Made by a program: the position numbers and the translations under genes. A stretch of 56,485 nucleotides of DNA from Piscirickettsiaceae bacterium (GTDB lineage Bacteria; Pseudomonadota; Gammaproteobacteria; Nitrosococcales; Methylophagaceae). The notes below the pieces were generated by a model. The model saw only the letters and a program-made list of their open reading frames with translations. It had not been told where the DNA came from and ran no database searches. Below are positions 9,391-15,750 of the stretch, piece by piece (the first letter of the stretch is position 1; each line of letters starts with the position of its first letter). The stretch is taken from NCBI GenBank assembly GCA_024685995.1, contig JAIBDY010000010.1, positions 1-56,485 on the forward strand, given 5' to 3'.

Positions 9391-9418
9391 AAGCCGGTTG
9401 TCTAATAGCAACCGGCTT
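9391..9418. terminator. Bidirectional terminator between peroxiredoxin gene and rpiA
   Basis: A perfect 10-bp inverted repeat (AAGCCGGTTG at 9391-9400, CAACCGGCTT at 9409-9418) has an 8-nt loop. It sits between two convergent genes and overlaps the rpiA stop codon. There is only a short T tract on either strand, so terminator strength is uncertain. Confidence 0.6.
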
Positions 9419-10106
9419 AACGCCACCGCTCAATCACCTCGGCACCATCACTAGCCACAAAGACAGCGCTGGCTAAATCTACAAAAATGCCGTGTTCAAC
9501 GACGCCGGGGATATCGTTTAATACCGTATTTAACGTACTCGCGTCGGGGTAACTTTCAAAAGTCATATCGAGTACCAAGCTACCATGCGAGGTGACTGCC
9601 AAGCCATCCCCCGCCGCATTGGGCCTTAACTGCCCTGTGCCGCCCAAGGCCTGTAAGTTTTGCTGGACGAGTTGCCATGCAAAAGGCATCACTTCAACCG
9701 GAATTGCATAATTTTGACCAATCTTAGCGACCATTTTACTGTCATCGACTAAAACGTAAAACGTCTGACTCGCCCTTGCCAATAGCTTTTCGCGTACTAA
9801 ATCTGAACCTCGCCCTTTCAACAAAGTCATGTCTGGTGACACTTCATCCGCCCCGTCCACATACACATCAATGCCGTTTAATTGTTCAATACTGATTTGT
9901 GGTAAACCTAAACTTTGCGCTTTCATTGTGCTCACCACCGAACTTGCCACCGTCACACAATCTAAGCCTTGTTGTTGTCGTGCAGCCAAAGCCTCAATAA
10001 AATAATTCGCCGTCGATCCGGTTCCTAACCCGACAATCATGCCATCTTCAATCAAATTAGCGGCATGATTCGCCACCCGTTGTTTTGCATTTAGCTCGGT
10101 TGTCAT
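9417..10106 (-). CDS. rpiA: Ribose-5-phosphate isomerase A
   Basis: RpiA interconverts ribose-5-phosphate and ribulose-5-phosphate in the pentose phosphate pathway. The protein is 229 aa, close to the usual 219. It has the phosphate-binding motif GLGTGSTANYF, the DGADEV motif carrying catalytic Asp residues, and GRGSDLVREK. I chose the ATG at 10106 (MTTELNAKQ) because AAGGAG lies 7 nt upstream; the frame stays open to 10145. A decayed copy of its promoter, start and first 20 or so codons lies at 14707-14804. Confidence 0.97.
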   Translation of the reverse strand: MTTELNAKQRVANHAANLIEDGMIVGLGTGSTANYFIEALAARQQQGLDCVTVASSVVSTMKAQSLGLPQISIEQLNGIDVYVDGADEVSPDMTLLKGRGSDLVREKLLARASQTFYVLVDDSKMVAKIGQNYAIPVEVMPFAWQLVQQNLQALGGTGQLRPNAAGDGLAVTSHGSLVLDMTFESYPDASTLNTVLNDIPGVVEHGIFVDLASAVFVASDGAEVIERWR

Positions 10107-10233
10107 GATGCACTCCTTAAGATTCAAACAGTTAAATTCAGACATATAAAGAAAATAGTCTCCTTAATTTGCCTCTTATACCACTTACCGTTACTATTCG
10201 ACACTAATAAGATTTAGAGCAAGGAGGCGATAG

Positions 10234-13107
10234 ATGAAGACGCCTATATCGAAGAAGCATGAGCAGGCGCGCATTGCAGCGTTAAACAACTTAAAGAGCC
10301 TTGACACACCGAATACCGATGAACGTTTTGATCGCATTACCCGTCTTGCGGTTCAAATATTTAACGTTTCTAGTGCTGCGATTGGTTTAATTGATACTGA
10401 CCGTGTCTGGTTAAAGTCAAAACAAGGGCTCACTGAACTTTGCGAGTTACCACGGGAGGAATCCTTTTGTGGACAGACCATTCTGCAATCCGATATTTTA
10501 GAAATATCCAACACCCTTGAAGACCCTGATTTTGCAGACCACCCACTTGTTACAGGGCCGCCCCATCTCCGTTTCTACGCTGGTGTCCCTTTAGTTTCCC
10601 CTGATGGCTACCACGTCGGCACGCTCTGTCTTTTTAATTCCACACCTAAAACATTAACCCCGAATGAACGTCTAAGCTTACGCGACCTTGCGAATTGGAT
10701 ACAGGATGAATTTGTAAAAGATAGCATTCAACATACTGAAGGTCGATTAAGCACCATTTTAGACACCGTTGTTGATGCCATTATCACCATTGACGAGCAA
10801 GGTCGCATAGACAGTTTTAATCACGCCGCCACCCAACTCTTTGGTTATCAAGCGAATGAGGCCGTTGGCAATAAAGTTAACATACTGCTGCCAGAACCCT
10901 TTCACCACCAGGATTATCTAAAACGCTTGCTAGTACTTGACCAAAAAGGGCGAGAAGTCATTGGGCGACGAAAAGACGGCACGACATTCCCATTGGAACT
11001 GACGGTGAGTGAAACGGTAGTGGCTGGCCAGCGTTATTTCACAGGTATTGCCCGTGACATAACAGAACAAATCGAAGACAAGCAAGCCCTAGCACTCTCT
11101 CACCAGCGCCTGAAACTAGCGACGGATGCAGGCGGCTTCGGCGTTTGGGATTATGACCTCGTTGAAGACACGCTCATTTGGGATGACCAGATGTTCAAAA
11201 TTTTTGGACAAGCTGTTGGGACTACCCCATTAAGTTATGAGGATTGGTTAAAAGCTTTACACCCTGAAGACAGAGAGCAAGCTGATAAAGAAATACAGGC
11301 CGTGTTGAATAGCGCACAAGACTTCACTAATGAATATCGCATCATTTGGCCCGATGGATCGATACATTATATCTATGCCGCAGCTGTAGTCATACGGAAT
11401 AATGCCGGCAAACCACAGCGGATGATTGGTCTCAATTCAGATATTACTGAACAAAAAGAAGCACACATCAAATTAAACCATGCTCACCAGTTATATCAAT
11501 CCATTATTGATACGATGGATGACTTGGTCTACGTCAAAGATCGGGATTTTAAATTTATCGCCTGCAATGATGCCTTTGCTAGCGTGCACGCACTGCCTAA
11601 GGAAGAGATCATCGGACATACTGATGAACGCTCTATCTCACTGCATAAAAACATCACACACCTTAGATATTGGGATCAAAAGGTCTTTGAAACCGGCAAA
11701 ATGCAAATGTTTGATACTTCGATAAACTTCCCCAAGGGCAGCCAAACTCTTCTCCATATCAGAAAATATCCACTATATCAGGACAATATCCTAATTGGCG
11801 TTGTCGGTATTGGCCACGATATCACCAAAAGAGAAAAGCAAGCCAAAGAGCTCAAACAGGCTAAAAAGGCAGCCGAACAGGCCAATAACATGAAGTCTGA
11901 GTTTCTAGCCAATATGAGTCACGAACTGCGCACCCCTTTGAATGCCATTATTGGCTTTTCTGAATTACTCAAAGATGGGGTCATCGGCGAGTTGACAGCA
12001 GATCAAACACAATATTGCACTGAAATCTTTGATAGTGGCTCTCATTTACTTGATTTAATCAATGACATTCTTGATTTATCTAAAGTCGAAGCTGGGAAGT
12101 TAGAGCTAAACCTTGAAGCCGTATCCATTCAAGATTTATTACAAAGCAGCCTGTATATTATTCGCGAAAAAGCAATACATCAACACATCAGCCTGTCACT
12201 CAAGTGCGATGACAACATAGAGCCATGCCTTGTTGATTCGCGAAAAATAAAACAAATACTCTATAACTTATTATCCAATGCGGTTAAGTTTACCAATGAG
12301 GGTGGCCAGATAAGTTTAACGGCAAAACTATTGGGGCAGCAGCAAGTAATTACCTTATTTGACAGCCACAAAATACCCACTCATAAAGAAAGTTATATTG
12401 AGCTGTCAGTGACGGATAGTGGTATCGGGATCCTTGATACCGATTTCGACAAAATATTTCGGCCCTTTGAACAAGTTGAAAGTTCATTATCTAGGCGCTA
12501 TCAAGGTACTGGGCTGGGATTAAGCTTGGTTCGAGCGCTAGCTGAACTGCATCACGGCACTGTCAGTGTCACTTCCAGACTCGGTCAAGGCTCGACCTTC
12601 AGCGTTTATTTGCCTTACCGCCCAGTCAAAACTGAAACTGAAACTGAAACTGAAACTGAAACTGAAACTGAAACTGAAACTGAAACTGAAACTGAAACTG
12701 AAACCAGTCAGGTATCCCTCTTTGCACTCATTATCGAAGATGATACCCCTGCTGCAAAGATAACCGAAACACAATTACAGTCTCATGGCTTTTTTACCAC
12801 TGCCGTGACAACGGGCGAACACGCGCTGGAATGGCTGCAAACACATCAAAAACCTGATCTCATTGTTTTAGATATTATTTTGCCGACCATGGGAGGCTGG
12901 GAATTATTACAGCGAATACACTCTCAATTTCCCCACTATGACGATATCCCCATCATTATCCTTTCCATCATAGGCGATGATAATCAACAACGTGCTGATG
13001 CCATGGGTGTGACGGCCACTTTGCAAAAACCTGTAGAACAACAAGCGCTAAACCAAATATTGCTTAAGCTCGGTTTAAGCACTCGCTGTCAAAACGAGGA
13101 GCGCTAA
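10234..13107 (+). CDS. Hybrid sensor histidine kinase, GAF-PAS3-HisKA-HATPase-REC
   Basis: This 957-aa hybrid kinase has no obvious transmembrane helices, so it is probably cytoplasmic. Domains in order are GAF (about 10-160), PAS (170-285), PAS (290-405), PAS (420-535), HisKA with phosphoacceptor H563 in NMSHELRTPLNAIIGF, and HATPase_c with N682 in LLSNAVKF and a DSGIGI G-box near 727. A Thr-Glu repeat linker (800-823) leads to a C-terminal receiver with phosphoacceptor D880. An SD (AAGGAGG) precedes the ATG. It is followed without a gap by a single-domain regulator and an HD-GYP regulator, implying a phosphorelay controlling c-di-GMP breakdown. The input signal is unknown. Confidence 0.93.
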   Translation: MKTPISKKHEQARIAALNNLKSLDTPNTDERFDRITRLAVQIFNVSSAAIGLIDTDRVWLKSKQGLTELCELPREESFCGQTILQSDILEISNTLEDPDFADHPLVTGPPHLRFYAGVPLVSPDGYHVGTLCLFNSTPKTLTPNERLSLRDLANWIQDEFVKDSIQHTEGRLSTILDTVVDAIITIDEQGRIDSFNHAATQLFGYQANEAVGNKVNILLPEPFHHQDYLKRLLVLDQKGREVIGRRKDGTTFPLELTVSETVVAGQRYFTGIARDITEQIEDKQALALSHQRLKLATDAGGFGVWDYDLVEDTLIWDDQMFKIFGQAVGTTPLSYEDWLKALHPEDREQADKEIQAVLNSAQDFTNEYRIIWPDGSIHYIYAAAVVIRNNAGKPQRMIGLNSDITEQKEAHIKLNHAHQLYQSIIDTMDDLVYVKDRDFKFIACNDAFASVHALPKEEIIGHTDERSISLHKNITHLRYWDQKVFETGKMQMFDTSINFPKGSQTLLHIRKYPLYQDNILIGVVGIGHDITKREKQAKELKQAKKAAEQANNMKSEFLANMSHELRTPLNAIIGFSELLKDGVIGELTADQTQYCTEIFDSGSHLLDLINDILDLSKVEAGKLELNLEAVSIQDLLQSSLYIIREKAIHQHISLSLKCDDNIEPCLVDSRKIKQILYNLLSNAVKFTNEGGQISLTAKLLGQQQVITLFDSHKIPTHKESYIELSVTDSGIGILDTDFDKIFRPFEQVESSLSRRYQGTGLGLSLVRALAELHHGTVSVTSRLGQGSTFSVYLPYRPVKTETETETETETETETETETETETETSQVSLFALIIEDDTPAAKITETQLQSHGFFTTAVTTGEHALEWLQTHQKPDLIVLDIILPTMGGWELLQRIHSQFPHYDDIPIIILSIIGDDNQQRADAMGVTATLQKPVEQQALNQILLKLGLSTRCQNEER
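12631..12702 (+). repeat. Hexanucleotide tandem repeat (ACTGAA)x12 inside the kinase gene
   Basis: Twelve perfect copies of ACTGAA encode twelve Thr-Glu dipeptides (residues 800-823) between the HATPase and receiver domains. The 6-bp unit keeps frame, so slippage would change linker length rather than switch the gene off. Confidence 0.97.
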
Positions 13108-13473
13108 ATGACGAAAATTCTGATTATTGAAGACACCCCCGCCAATATGCGTTTAGTCGTTGGCATCTTGGAACGTGAAGGTTATATCGTCACGCCAGCT
13201 GAGACTGCAGAGCAAGGTATTGAGCTCGCCCAACAAATACGGTTTGACTTGATATTAATGGATATCCAATTACCCACAATGGATGGCTTAACCGCGATAC
13301 GTATTTTAAGAGAAATCGACCGCGTTAAAACTACCCCGATCATCGCATTGACCGCCCATGCCATGAAAGAGGAAGAGGCACAGATATTAGCTTCTGGTTG
13401 TGATGGTTATATTGCCAAACCGATTCGCTACAAAGCCCTTCTTAATACGGTTCAACAGTATTTGAACAATTAG
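13108..13473 (+). CDS. Single-domain response regulator (DivK/CheY-like)
   Basis: This is a 121-aa stand-alone receiver domain with no output domain. The acidic pocket is in IIEDTPANMR, the phosphoacceptor is D52 in LILMDIQLP, the conserved Thr is in PIIALTAHAM and the Lys is in YIAKPIR. The AMKEEE segment after the Thr is typical of DivK-like regulators. The ATG directly follows the kinase stop codon, and its own stop abuts the next gene, so the three are cotranscribed. It probably relays phosphate from, or tunes, the hybrid kinase. Confidence 0.92.
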   Translation: MTKILIIEDTPANMRLVVGILEREGYIVTPAETAEQGIELAQQIRFDLILMDIQLPTMDGLTAIRILREIDRVKTTPIIALTAHAMKEEEAQILASGCDGYIAKPIRYKALLNTVQQYLNN

Positions 13474-13493
13474 TGACCAAAGGACAGCCAAAC

Positions 13494-14555
13494 ATGATCG
13501 ACACCACCGGCGCCAAAATACTCATTATCGATGATGAGCGAAAGAACAGGATGCTGTTAACCTTGCATATGACCGAAGAAGGTTACCAACATCAAGAAGC
13601 CAGCAGCGGTGCAGAGGGCATTATGCTGGCAAGATCCTCACAACCCGACTTAATTTTACTCGATGCGATGATGCCAGAAATGGATGGTTTTCAAGTCGCC
13701 ATGAAACTCAAAAACGATCCCAAAACACAAGGCATCCCCATTATCATGGTGACAGCCCTGTCAGATCAAAGCTCACTTGAGCGTGGTCTTGCTTGCGGCA
13801 TTGAAGAATTTATCAGTAAACCCGTCAAAGCCAACGAAGTGCAAATACGAGTACGTAATTTATTAAGGCTCAAGCTAGCAAACGATGCCCTGTCTAATCA
13901 TAATGGCTTGCTCGATGCCGAGGTACAAAAACGGACACAAGAACTCGAAACGACCACCGAAGAAAGCATACATATGTTGATGCGAGCGGCCGAATATCGG
14001 GATGATGAAACAGGCTCACACGTTAAAAGGATCAGTTATTATTGTAAATACTTAGCAAAGGCACTGGGGATGAGTGATGACTATTGCCACACAATCTTTT
14101 TCGCCAGTCCTATGCACGATGTTGGGAAAATAGGGATCCCAGACGCGATACTGCTAAAAGCAGGTGGTTTTGAACCCCATGAATGGGAAATAATGAAAAG
14201 CCATACGACCATCGGCGCCAATATCCTCAGCGGCCAGCATAGTTCACCCTATATTACAATGGGTAAAGAGATAGCCCTCTCACATCATGAGTGCTGGGAT
14301 GGTAGTGGTTATCCGCATGGCTTAAAGGGCGAAGAAATTCCATTATCTGCACGTATAATGAGTATTTGTGATGTCTATGATGCCTTACGTAGCGAAAGGC
14401 CTTATAAAAAGCCTTTTGACCATCAAACGGCAATGAAAAAAATCGAACACGGTGATGATCGCTTAAGAGCGGAACATTTCGACCCCACGATTAAAGCCAA
14501 GTTTATCGCCTTTCACTCTGCTTTTGAAAAGATATTTGATAGTTTAAATCAGTAA
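13494..14555 (+). CDS. REC-HD-GYP response regulator (c-di-GMP phosphodiesterase)
   Basis: A receiver domain (phosphoacceptor D57 in LILLDAMMPEMDGF) is joined through a helical linker to an HD-GYP domain with H208-D209 in MHDVGKIGIPD and G272-Y273-P274. HD-GYP proteins with intact HD and GYP motifs usually hydrolyse c-di-GMP. I took the ATG at 13494 (353 aa), which has AAGGA about 10 nt upstream. A GTG at 13473 overlapping the previous stop would add 7 residues. This is the output end of the three-gene cassette; phosphorylation probably controls the phosphodiesterase. Confidence 0.92.
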   Translation: MIDTTGAKILIIDDERKNRMLLTLHMTEEGYQHQEASSGAEGIMLARSSQPDLILLDAMMPEMDGFQVAMKLKNDPKTQGIPIIMVTALSDQSSLERGLACGIEEFISKPVKANEVQIRVRNLLRLKLANDALSNHNGLLDAEVQKRTQELETTTEESIHMLMRAAEYRDDETGSHVKRISYYCKYLAKALGMSDDYCHTIFFASPMHDVGKIGIPDAILLKAGGFEPHEWEIMKSHTTIGANILSGQHSSPYITMGKEIALSHHECWDGSGYPHGLKGEEIPLSARIMSICDVYDALRSERPYKKPFDHQTAMKKIEHGDDRLRAEHFDPTIKAKFIAFHSAFEKIFDSLNQ

Positions 14556-14706
14556 CTATTTTTTTGCTAAAAAAGCAAAATTCCGACACTGACTGACCTA
14601 AACACAACCTAGACCATGATTGATTTTTTCGACCATCAGTGCCAAACAAAACTCAGTTGCTATCTTATTTTTTAGCTCCAAAACCGCAACTGAACTGATT
14701 CAAAGA

Positions 14707-14804
14707 AATAGCTTTAAATCCAATAGCGGCATGATTCTCCCTGTCCCTTATTTTGCATTTAGGTCGGCGGCTATGATGCCTTCTCTATGACGTAAACTGT
14801 TAAA
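14707..14804 (-). pseudogene. rpiA': Decayed partial duplicate of the rpiA 5' end
   Basis: Read on the minus strand, this segment aligns with the leader and first 20 or so codons of rpiA (10042-10137). Exact blocks include 14 nt at 14724-14737 (TAGCGGCATGATTC on the plus strand) and 11 nt TTTTGCATTTA, followed after one mismatch by TCGG. The start codon has become ATA and the SD is disturbed, so it is not expressed as RpiA. The rest of the 313-bp gap (14556-14868) shows only a weak AT-rich hairpin after the HD-GYP gene. Both copies lie in the same orientation on either side of the signalling cassette. Confidence 0.8.
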
Positions 14805-14868
14805 ATAATGCGCTACACCATATTCCTAACATCATTTTAAGCTAAATTGTTACAGTCAGGATGCTACG

Positions 14869-15750
14869 ATGATTAACTTTGATTCAATTGTGCAACATAT
14901 TCAACAAACAACAGGCCGCACTTTTTCCGACTACAGCCAAACGTCAATTGGCGGTGGCGGCATTAATGCGGCCTTTCAACTTAAAACGCCTGAGCAATCC
15001 TATTTCATCAAGCTCAACACCCCACAACGTGAGTCGATGTTTGAAGCAGAGGCACAAGGGCTCCTGAATATAGCTGCCACAAACTGTATTCGCGTGCCCG
15101 ACGTCATTTGTTTCGGTAAAACGGCCACCCACAGTTATCTCGTTTTAGAATATATTGCTTGCCAGCGCTTTGATCAGACTTCAAGCACCTTACTCGGCGA
15201 GCAACTCGCACAACTACATCACATAGCTCAACCTTATTTTGGCTGGCATTGTGACAACACCATTGGCAGTACGCCGCAATATAACCCTCGTGAGCACGAC
15301 TGGCTAACTTTTTGGCAACAGCATCGCCTTCAACAACAGCTCACTTTCGCGAAACAAAATGGTTACGCTCAACAATTACAAGACAAAGGCGACCGCCTTA
15401 CAGACAAGTTAGGTGTGTTTTTTGAAGCTTATTCACCACAACCAGCCTTATTACACGGTGATTTATGGAGCGGTAATGCCGCGACCGATTCTCAAGGTAG
15501 ACCAATTATTTATGATCCTGCTTGTTATTACGGCGACAGAGAAGCTGACATCGCGATGACAGAGTTATTCGGCGGCTTTAGCCAATCGTTTTATGACGCT
15601 TACCGAGCTAATTTACCCTTAGATGCCGCTTATCAAACACGAAAAAGCCTTTATAATCTATACCATATATTAAATCACGTTAACTTATTCGGCGGCAGCT
15701 ATCTCAGCCAAGCCAGCCAGATGATAGACCAACTCCTCGCCGACACTTAA
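14869..15750 (+). CDS. Fructosamine kinase family protein
   Basis: This 293-aa protein belongs to the fructosamine/ketosamine kinase family (YniA-like, COG3001), whose members phosphorylate sugars on glycated amines so that the adduct is released. Visible motifs are an N-terminal GGGGINAAF-like loop, LLHGDLWSGNAA (catalytic Asp region, about residues 197-208) and a downstream metal-binding DPACYYGDREAD. It is followed after 17 bp by a low-molecular-weight tyrosine phosphatase, a frequent neighbour of this family. The two may cooperate in protein deglycation, which is inference. Confidence 0.88.
   Translation: MINFDSIVQHIQQTTGRTFSDYSQTSIGGGGINAAFQLKTPEQSYFIKLNTPQRESMFEAEAQGLLNIAATNCIRVPDVICFGKTATHSYLVLEYIACQRFDQTSSTLLGEQLAQLHHIAQPYFGWHCDNTIGSTPQYNPREHDWLTFWQQHRLQQQLTFAKQNGYAQQLQDKGDRLTDKLGVFFEAYSPQPALLHGDLWSGNAATDSQGRPIIYDPACYYGDREADIAMTELFGGFSQSFYDAYRANLPLDAAYQTRKSLYNLYHILNHVNLFGGSYLSQASQMIDQLLADT

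Follow-up and report, generated by a model that had tools for sequence, protein, structure and literature searches.

The window, i.e. the whole 56,485-nucleotide stretch of DNA that was analysed, contains an intact rpiA gene encoding ribose-5-phosphate isomerase A (9417..10106, minus strand), recognised above cut-off by the Pfam model PF06026 and the NCBIfam RpiA equivalog model. Further along lies FN3K (14869..15750, plus strand), a member of the fructosamine/ketosamine kinase family (Pfam PF03881) and, according to the junction in relatives, the ancestral divergent neighbour of rpiA. Three signalling genes, all on the plus strand, are located between them. The first (10234..13107) encodes a hybrid histidine kinase of 957 amino acids with a GAF, three PAS, HisKA, HATPase and REC domains in Pfam. 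The second (13108..13473) encodes a single-domain response regulator of 121 amino acids, also identified by Pfam, which is DivK-like, its best solved relative being DivK (1m5t). The third (13494..14555, with a possible alternative GTG start at 13473) encodes a REC-HD-GYP protein matching Pfam HD_5 and Response_reg, probably a cyclic di-GMP phosphodiesterase. Its best solved relative is 4mcw, with which the HD and HHExxDGxGYP stretches align, and both the REC and the HD-GYP domains are present. rpiA and the hybrid kinase are now divergent, with 127 bp separating their starts.

Judged by these domains, the sensor kinase is predicted to pass phosphate to the DivK-like receiver and to the REC-HD-GYP protein, which probably hydrolyses cyclic di-GMP. 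The cassette is probably a soluble sensor-kinase relay controlling cyclic di-GMP breakdown. Within the kinase gene an in-frame AAACTG hexamer is repeated in 12.7 perfect copies (window positions 12629-12704); it codes for a (Thr-Glu)n linker joining the kinase and the REC domain, and the length of this linker could differ among strains.

A protein search of the whole assembly found this rpiA and one paralogue on another contig, 37% identical to the window RpiA, and nothing else. When the wider contigs were searched for rpiA with a six-sequence alignment, none of the best 80 of 309 relatives was above 74%. At 56-67% identity, the window RpiA is far closer to the RpiA proteins of Methylobacter, Methylomonas, Methylophilus and their kin (L142-L212, among the same best 80 of 309) than to the 37% paralogue, which suggests that it is of methylotroph type.

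An Rfam scan over 9900-15000 gave no match at E 1, and promoter-like sites were no commoner than in shuffled sequences. The terminator scan gave two terminator-like sequences within rpiA, both on the minus strand, where 0.3 were expected.

The repeated rpiA start

The initial annotation described the rpiA leader and first codons as recurring, decayed and in the same orientation, downstream of the signalling genes. This is borne out by the best local alignment, in which positions 10047-10136 pair with 14714-14804 in the same orientation with a score of 65. In 2,000 first-order Markov shuffles the mean score is 15.1 and the maximum 28, far below that of the real pair, and the highest score at 1,396 other positions in the window is 25. 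The borders given earlier (10042-10137 and 14707-14804) were right to within 7 bases, and the three signalling genes do sit between the two copies.

According to the alignments, copy A (10047..10136, minus strand) consists of the first ~20 codons of rpiA with ~30 bp of leader and is functional, and copy B (14714..14804, minus strand) is a dead rpiA start with its leader. The ATG start codon of copy A, at 10106-10104 on the minus strand, corresponds to ATA at 14774-14772, the mutation that had been noted before; in addition, TAA replaces CAA at codon 9 of copy B and there are frameshifting indels. The copies are identical at 71 of 87 ungapped columns, with 7 gap positions, in the pairwise alignment, at 74% by BLAST and at 64 of 89 sites in a multiple alignment with relatives, i.e. 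they differ at 18-28% of the aligned sites over the three alignments. The exact core common to both is 14 bases. The differences are spread evenly over the codon positions (4/18, 3/20 and 3/21) and show no third-position excess. In its own assembly (1,841,434 bases in 56 contigs, 81.64% complete) the only significant matches to the repeat are copies A and B themselves, and five additional matches are short with E 0.6 or worse.

The two copies bound a segment of ~4.58 kb (10137..14713, no strand assigned), identified as inserted by the geometry of the repeat and by its absence from the junction in relatives. The GC content of the insert is 0.435-0.442 compared with 0.444 for the window; where base composition gives no sign, the edge of an operon that was acquired can still be marked by a short dead repeat. 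The insert has no integrase or transposase among its three genes, no inverted repeats pairing both insert ends were found, and a search of the own assembly with the insert edges (10137-10233 and 14556-14713) gave short matches, with a best E of 0.08, and no convincing second copy. A transposon insertion was rejected on the missing transposase and end-pairing inverted repeats, and on the length of the duplication, ~90 bp, which is too long for the short target duplication of a transposon.

The rpiA-FN3K junction in relatives

Of 56 family relatives considered, 52 contributed one rpiA locus each (L031-L063, L243-L261); left out were three genomes with no FN3K match (G028, G066, G069) and one with weak, broken FN3K matches (G029). 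In 45 of the 52 loci rpiA and FN3K lie next to each other in divergent orientation, separated by 59-239 bp. Four loci have 1.5-2.1 kb between the two genes (G014, G019, G032, G033), and of the remaining three one is rearranged (G026), one has no FN3K in the locus (G031) and one ends with its contig (G024). The cassette of the window is found at the junction in none of the 52 loci. The ancestral junction is visible in relatives, and the possibility that all relatives carry the cassette, with no second rpiA, does not apply. In G020 a different kinase and HD-GYP lie on the far side of FN3K.

In the window, 94 bp separate the dead start of copy B from FN3K, which is about the commonest spacing among the relatives. 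In 12 of the 52 loci the gap extrapolates to 91-93, or to about 94-96 when an extra query codon is allowed for, as the query began one codon ahead of the rpiA start and the true gaps are ~3 bp longer. The outer flanking genes keep the ancestral order on both sides of the locus. When the 64 bp joining the repeat to FN3K are compared with the intergenic sequences of relatives, 15 of 18 comparisons fall within shuffles and three reach 0.005-0.04; since these letters are little like those of the relatives, the nativeness of the FN3K side rests on spacing and gene order. Immediately beyond the repeat, copy A has TTCAG in common with five relatives and copy B does not, so the exact right-hand border of the repeat is uncertain.

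Each of the 52 loci was scanned for another rpiA start in the DNA upstream of rpiA, over 6 kb at most (part of this length, 512 bases in the shortest case, in nine of the loci L031-L063, and ~1 kb in L243-L261), and no convincing case was found. In 51 of the 52 loci the score was no higher than in 40 shuffles each. The exception, L034, scored 26 against a shuffle maximum of 25, but 24 against 34 when 200 shuffles were used, and was rejected as chance. The short junctions in 45 of 52 loci and the lack of a second start in the 52 support the proposal of the initial annotation that insertion of the cassette left a decayed rpiA scar.

To compare the two copies, sites in the repeat region were counted against 11 of the 18 relatives cut out at the junction. 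Copies A and B agree against the relative at 17-28 sites, only B departs at 13-20 sites and only A at 1-8 sites; with G010 the excess of changes on copy B is not significant (p 0.38). As three-taxon counts alone cannot order the branches, quartets and a tree were added. Of the 55 quartets with two relatives, 43 join A with B and the other 12 do not. FastTree recovers this pairing as well, with ~0.40 changes per site on B and almost none on A, and it is kept in a modest 129 of 200 bootstraps. Most probably, copy B arose by duplication in this lineage and was released from selection; conceivably, a start was instead acquired from a close relative.

A survey of the junctions in 33 loci, where not every gene pair occurs in each and the rpiA-FN3K distance was measured in 31, shows histidine kinases in all four insertions that exceed the median at rpiA-FN3K by more than 600 bp. 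A fifth insertion there, split across two contigs in G024, is also a kinase. At the FN3K-LMWP junction one of five such insertions is a kinase, and at the remaining junctions none of five, with the rearranged G026 set aside. In G026 the kinase sits between FN3K and mfd, and in G020 and G027 kinases adjoin FN3K at its far side, in loci that do not include LMWP. With 44-59% identity and a clear score gap to the next matches listed, the 460-amino-acid kinases of G019, G026, G032 and G033 group together; the kinase-REC proteins of G014 and G024 (47%) form a separate group, and the two types look unrelated. There are three separate arrangements, the 460-amino-acid kinase (in the junction in G019, G032 and G033, by FN3K in G026), the kinase-REC and the trio of the window. 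No rpiA scar was found at the other long junction insertions (4 loci, 200 shuffles).

These counts are small and were noticed after the fact, and we regard it as doubtful that histidine kinases preferentially land or are retained around FN3K, and especially between rpiA and FN3K. If they did, the site might be unusually open to insertion, or kinases might be favoured there, e.g. for sensing pentose-phosphate or glycation stress beside a methylotroph-type rpiA and a deglycation kinase.

The junction kinases of L034 (G032), L041 (G019), L052 (G014), L058 (G033) and L062/L262 (G024) read toward rpiA. In G026 (L056/L263) the rearranged rpiA lies between LMWP and FN3K, and a second, broken rpiA lies beside prx and oxred on another contig. 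At FN3K-LMWP the insertion is an RND metal-efflux-like operon in L046 (G011), a HipA-like gene in L032 (G017) and a two-component pair in L055 (G006).

Origin of the inserted segment

In the ancestral state, as seen in relatives, rpiA and FN3K are divergent with ~95 bp separating their start codons. The geometry of the locus indicates that ~4.58 kb with the hybrid-kinase, DivK-like and REC-HD-GYP operon entered this junction, and that ~90 bp of the rpiA 5' end were left on either side of the insert. Where the changes fall suggests that one copy remained on rpiA and kept working, and that the other remained beside FN3K, without a gene body, and decayed. The event would most likely have been the integration, by one crossover, of a circle with the operon and a short stretch from the 5' end of rpiA; a long staggered break that took up the operon and was then filled in would produce the same footprint. 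We consider this history of insertion, duplication of the rpiA 5' end and decay of one copy, most likely through a single crossover with a circle, to be quite probable. A single-crossover-type event is, we infer, the best fit, and against it stands that the circle must already have held rpiA sequence.

Neither a donor nor an empty site in the same species was found. Among the family relatives the best match of the kinase is 49%, over the kinase core, and among 274 genomes of the class (the own one included) the nearest HD-GYP proteins are 51% identical, in G053 and G244, which belong to other families. A kinase search of the wider contig collection gave 11 stretches that match the pattern, none of them a relative. 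At least 5,000 plasmid records match the HD-GYP protein, and all matches listed are below 60% identity.

Could rpiA have been duplicated before the cassette arrived? A tandem duplication of the whole gene, followed by replacement of most of the second copy by the cassette with its start left over, would give an identical order of parts, and the second, broken rpiA of G026 shows that duplication or relocation of the gene does occur in the group. However, this route requires an extra duplication and a deletion, and the protein search of the assembly shows no additional rpiA sequence separating the cassette from copy B; we find it improbable. For recombination between two pre-existing rpiA copies, one of the mechanisms first suggested, there is no support, as only ~90 bp of rpiA are repeated and the protein search of the assembly gave this rpiA and the 37% paralogue alone. 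The looser wording offered beside it, insertion next to a duplicated segment, holds in so far as it covers an insertion event that duplicated its own target, which is a simpler reading than two earlier rpiA copies. An island that integrated site-specifically into the 5' end of rpiA, carrying in a replacement start and displacing the old one, and that later lost its integrase, is improbable to the same degree. Displacement of gene ends to the far border is a known outcome of integrating islands, and the copies do have an exact core of 14 bases. Against this, the three genes of the insert include no integrase, which may have been lost later, the repeat is ~90 bp long, other insertions at the junction lack rpiA repeats, and the copies tend, if modestly, to group together and not A with another lineage.

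The least probable explanation is an assembly artefact that falsely joined two places. With 56 contigs the assembly is fragmented, and its completeness is 81.64%, but the copies differ at 18-28% of aligned sites, their exact core is merely 14 bases, and the outer gene order is ancestral on both sides. Homology-facilitated illegitimate recombination, in which one end of a linear donor pairs with rpiA and the other is joined at random, is known in naturally competent bacteria (PMC3240628). However, as described in the same source, this process predicts a deletion at the target (PMC3240628), and here there is a duplication and the FN3K spacing is kept, so we hold it to be very unlikely.

In the favoured reading, in which the insertion duplicated the 5' end of rpiA, the junction before the event, the junction after it and the duplicate in decay can all be observed, and they indicate how a probable cyclic di-GMP signalling operon entered a compact genome.

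Comparison with known systems

The same order and strand of kinase, DivK-like and REC-HD-GYP genes is found elsewhere at four of 14 loci, L131 (G028), L132 (G009), L121 (G148) and L119 (G053), the last with the kinase end only. The 14 loci were picked for their HD-GYP or kinase matches, and the rate of 4/14 is meaningless as a frequency. These four operons are at other genomic places and are 35-53% (divK) and 43-51% (HD-GYP) identical to that of the window, and their kinases match in the core or REC part only. The REC-HD-GYP protein has its REC and HD-GYP domains in common with the RpfG-like and NosR-family phosphodiesterases. The NosR family is its best NCBIfam match, at 155.7 bits, far below the 400-bit cut-off, and the protein is not a member.

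Among the papers searched, none united rpiA, a genomic island, an integration site and a direct repeat. The closest comparison is with insertion-duplication in the E. coli lacZ experiments of PMC3240628, where 56 of 60 clones gave the duplication product of a single crossover with a circle, and where the target duplications in 14 sequenced clones were 109-950 bp. As in that system, foreign DNA lies here between short direct copies of the target. Nothing was lost at the target there, and perhaps nothing here, where the dead start keeps the FN3K spacing of relatives but the intergenic letters are not clearly conserved. The repeat of ~90 bp is slightly below the E. coli range (PMC3240628). In contrast to E. 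coli, the event here is old, one copy has decayed and the circle is hypothetical. The footprint of gene gain is clear but fairly ordinary, and belongs to a class of event that is already known.
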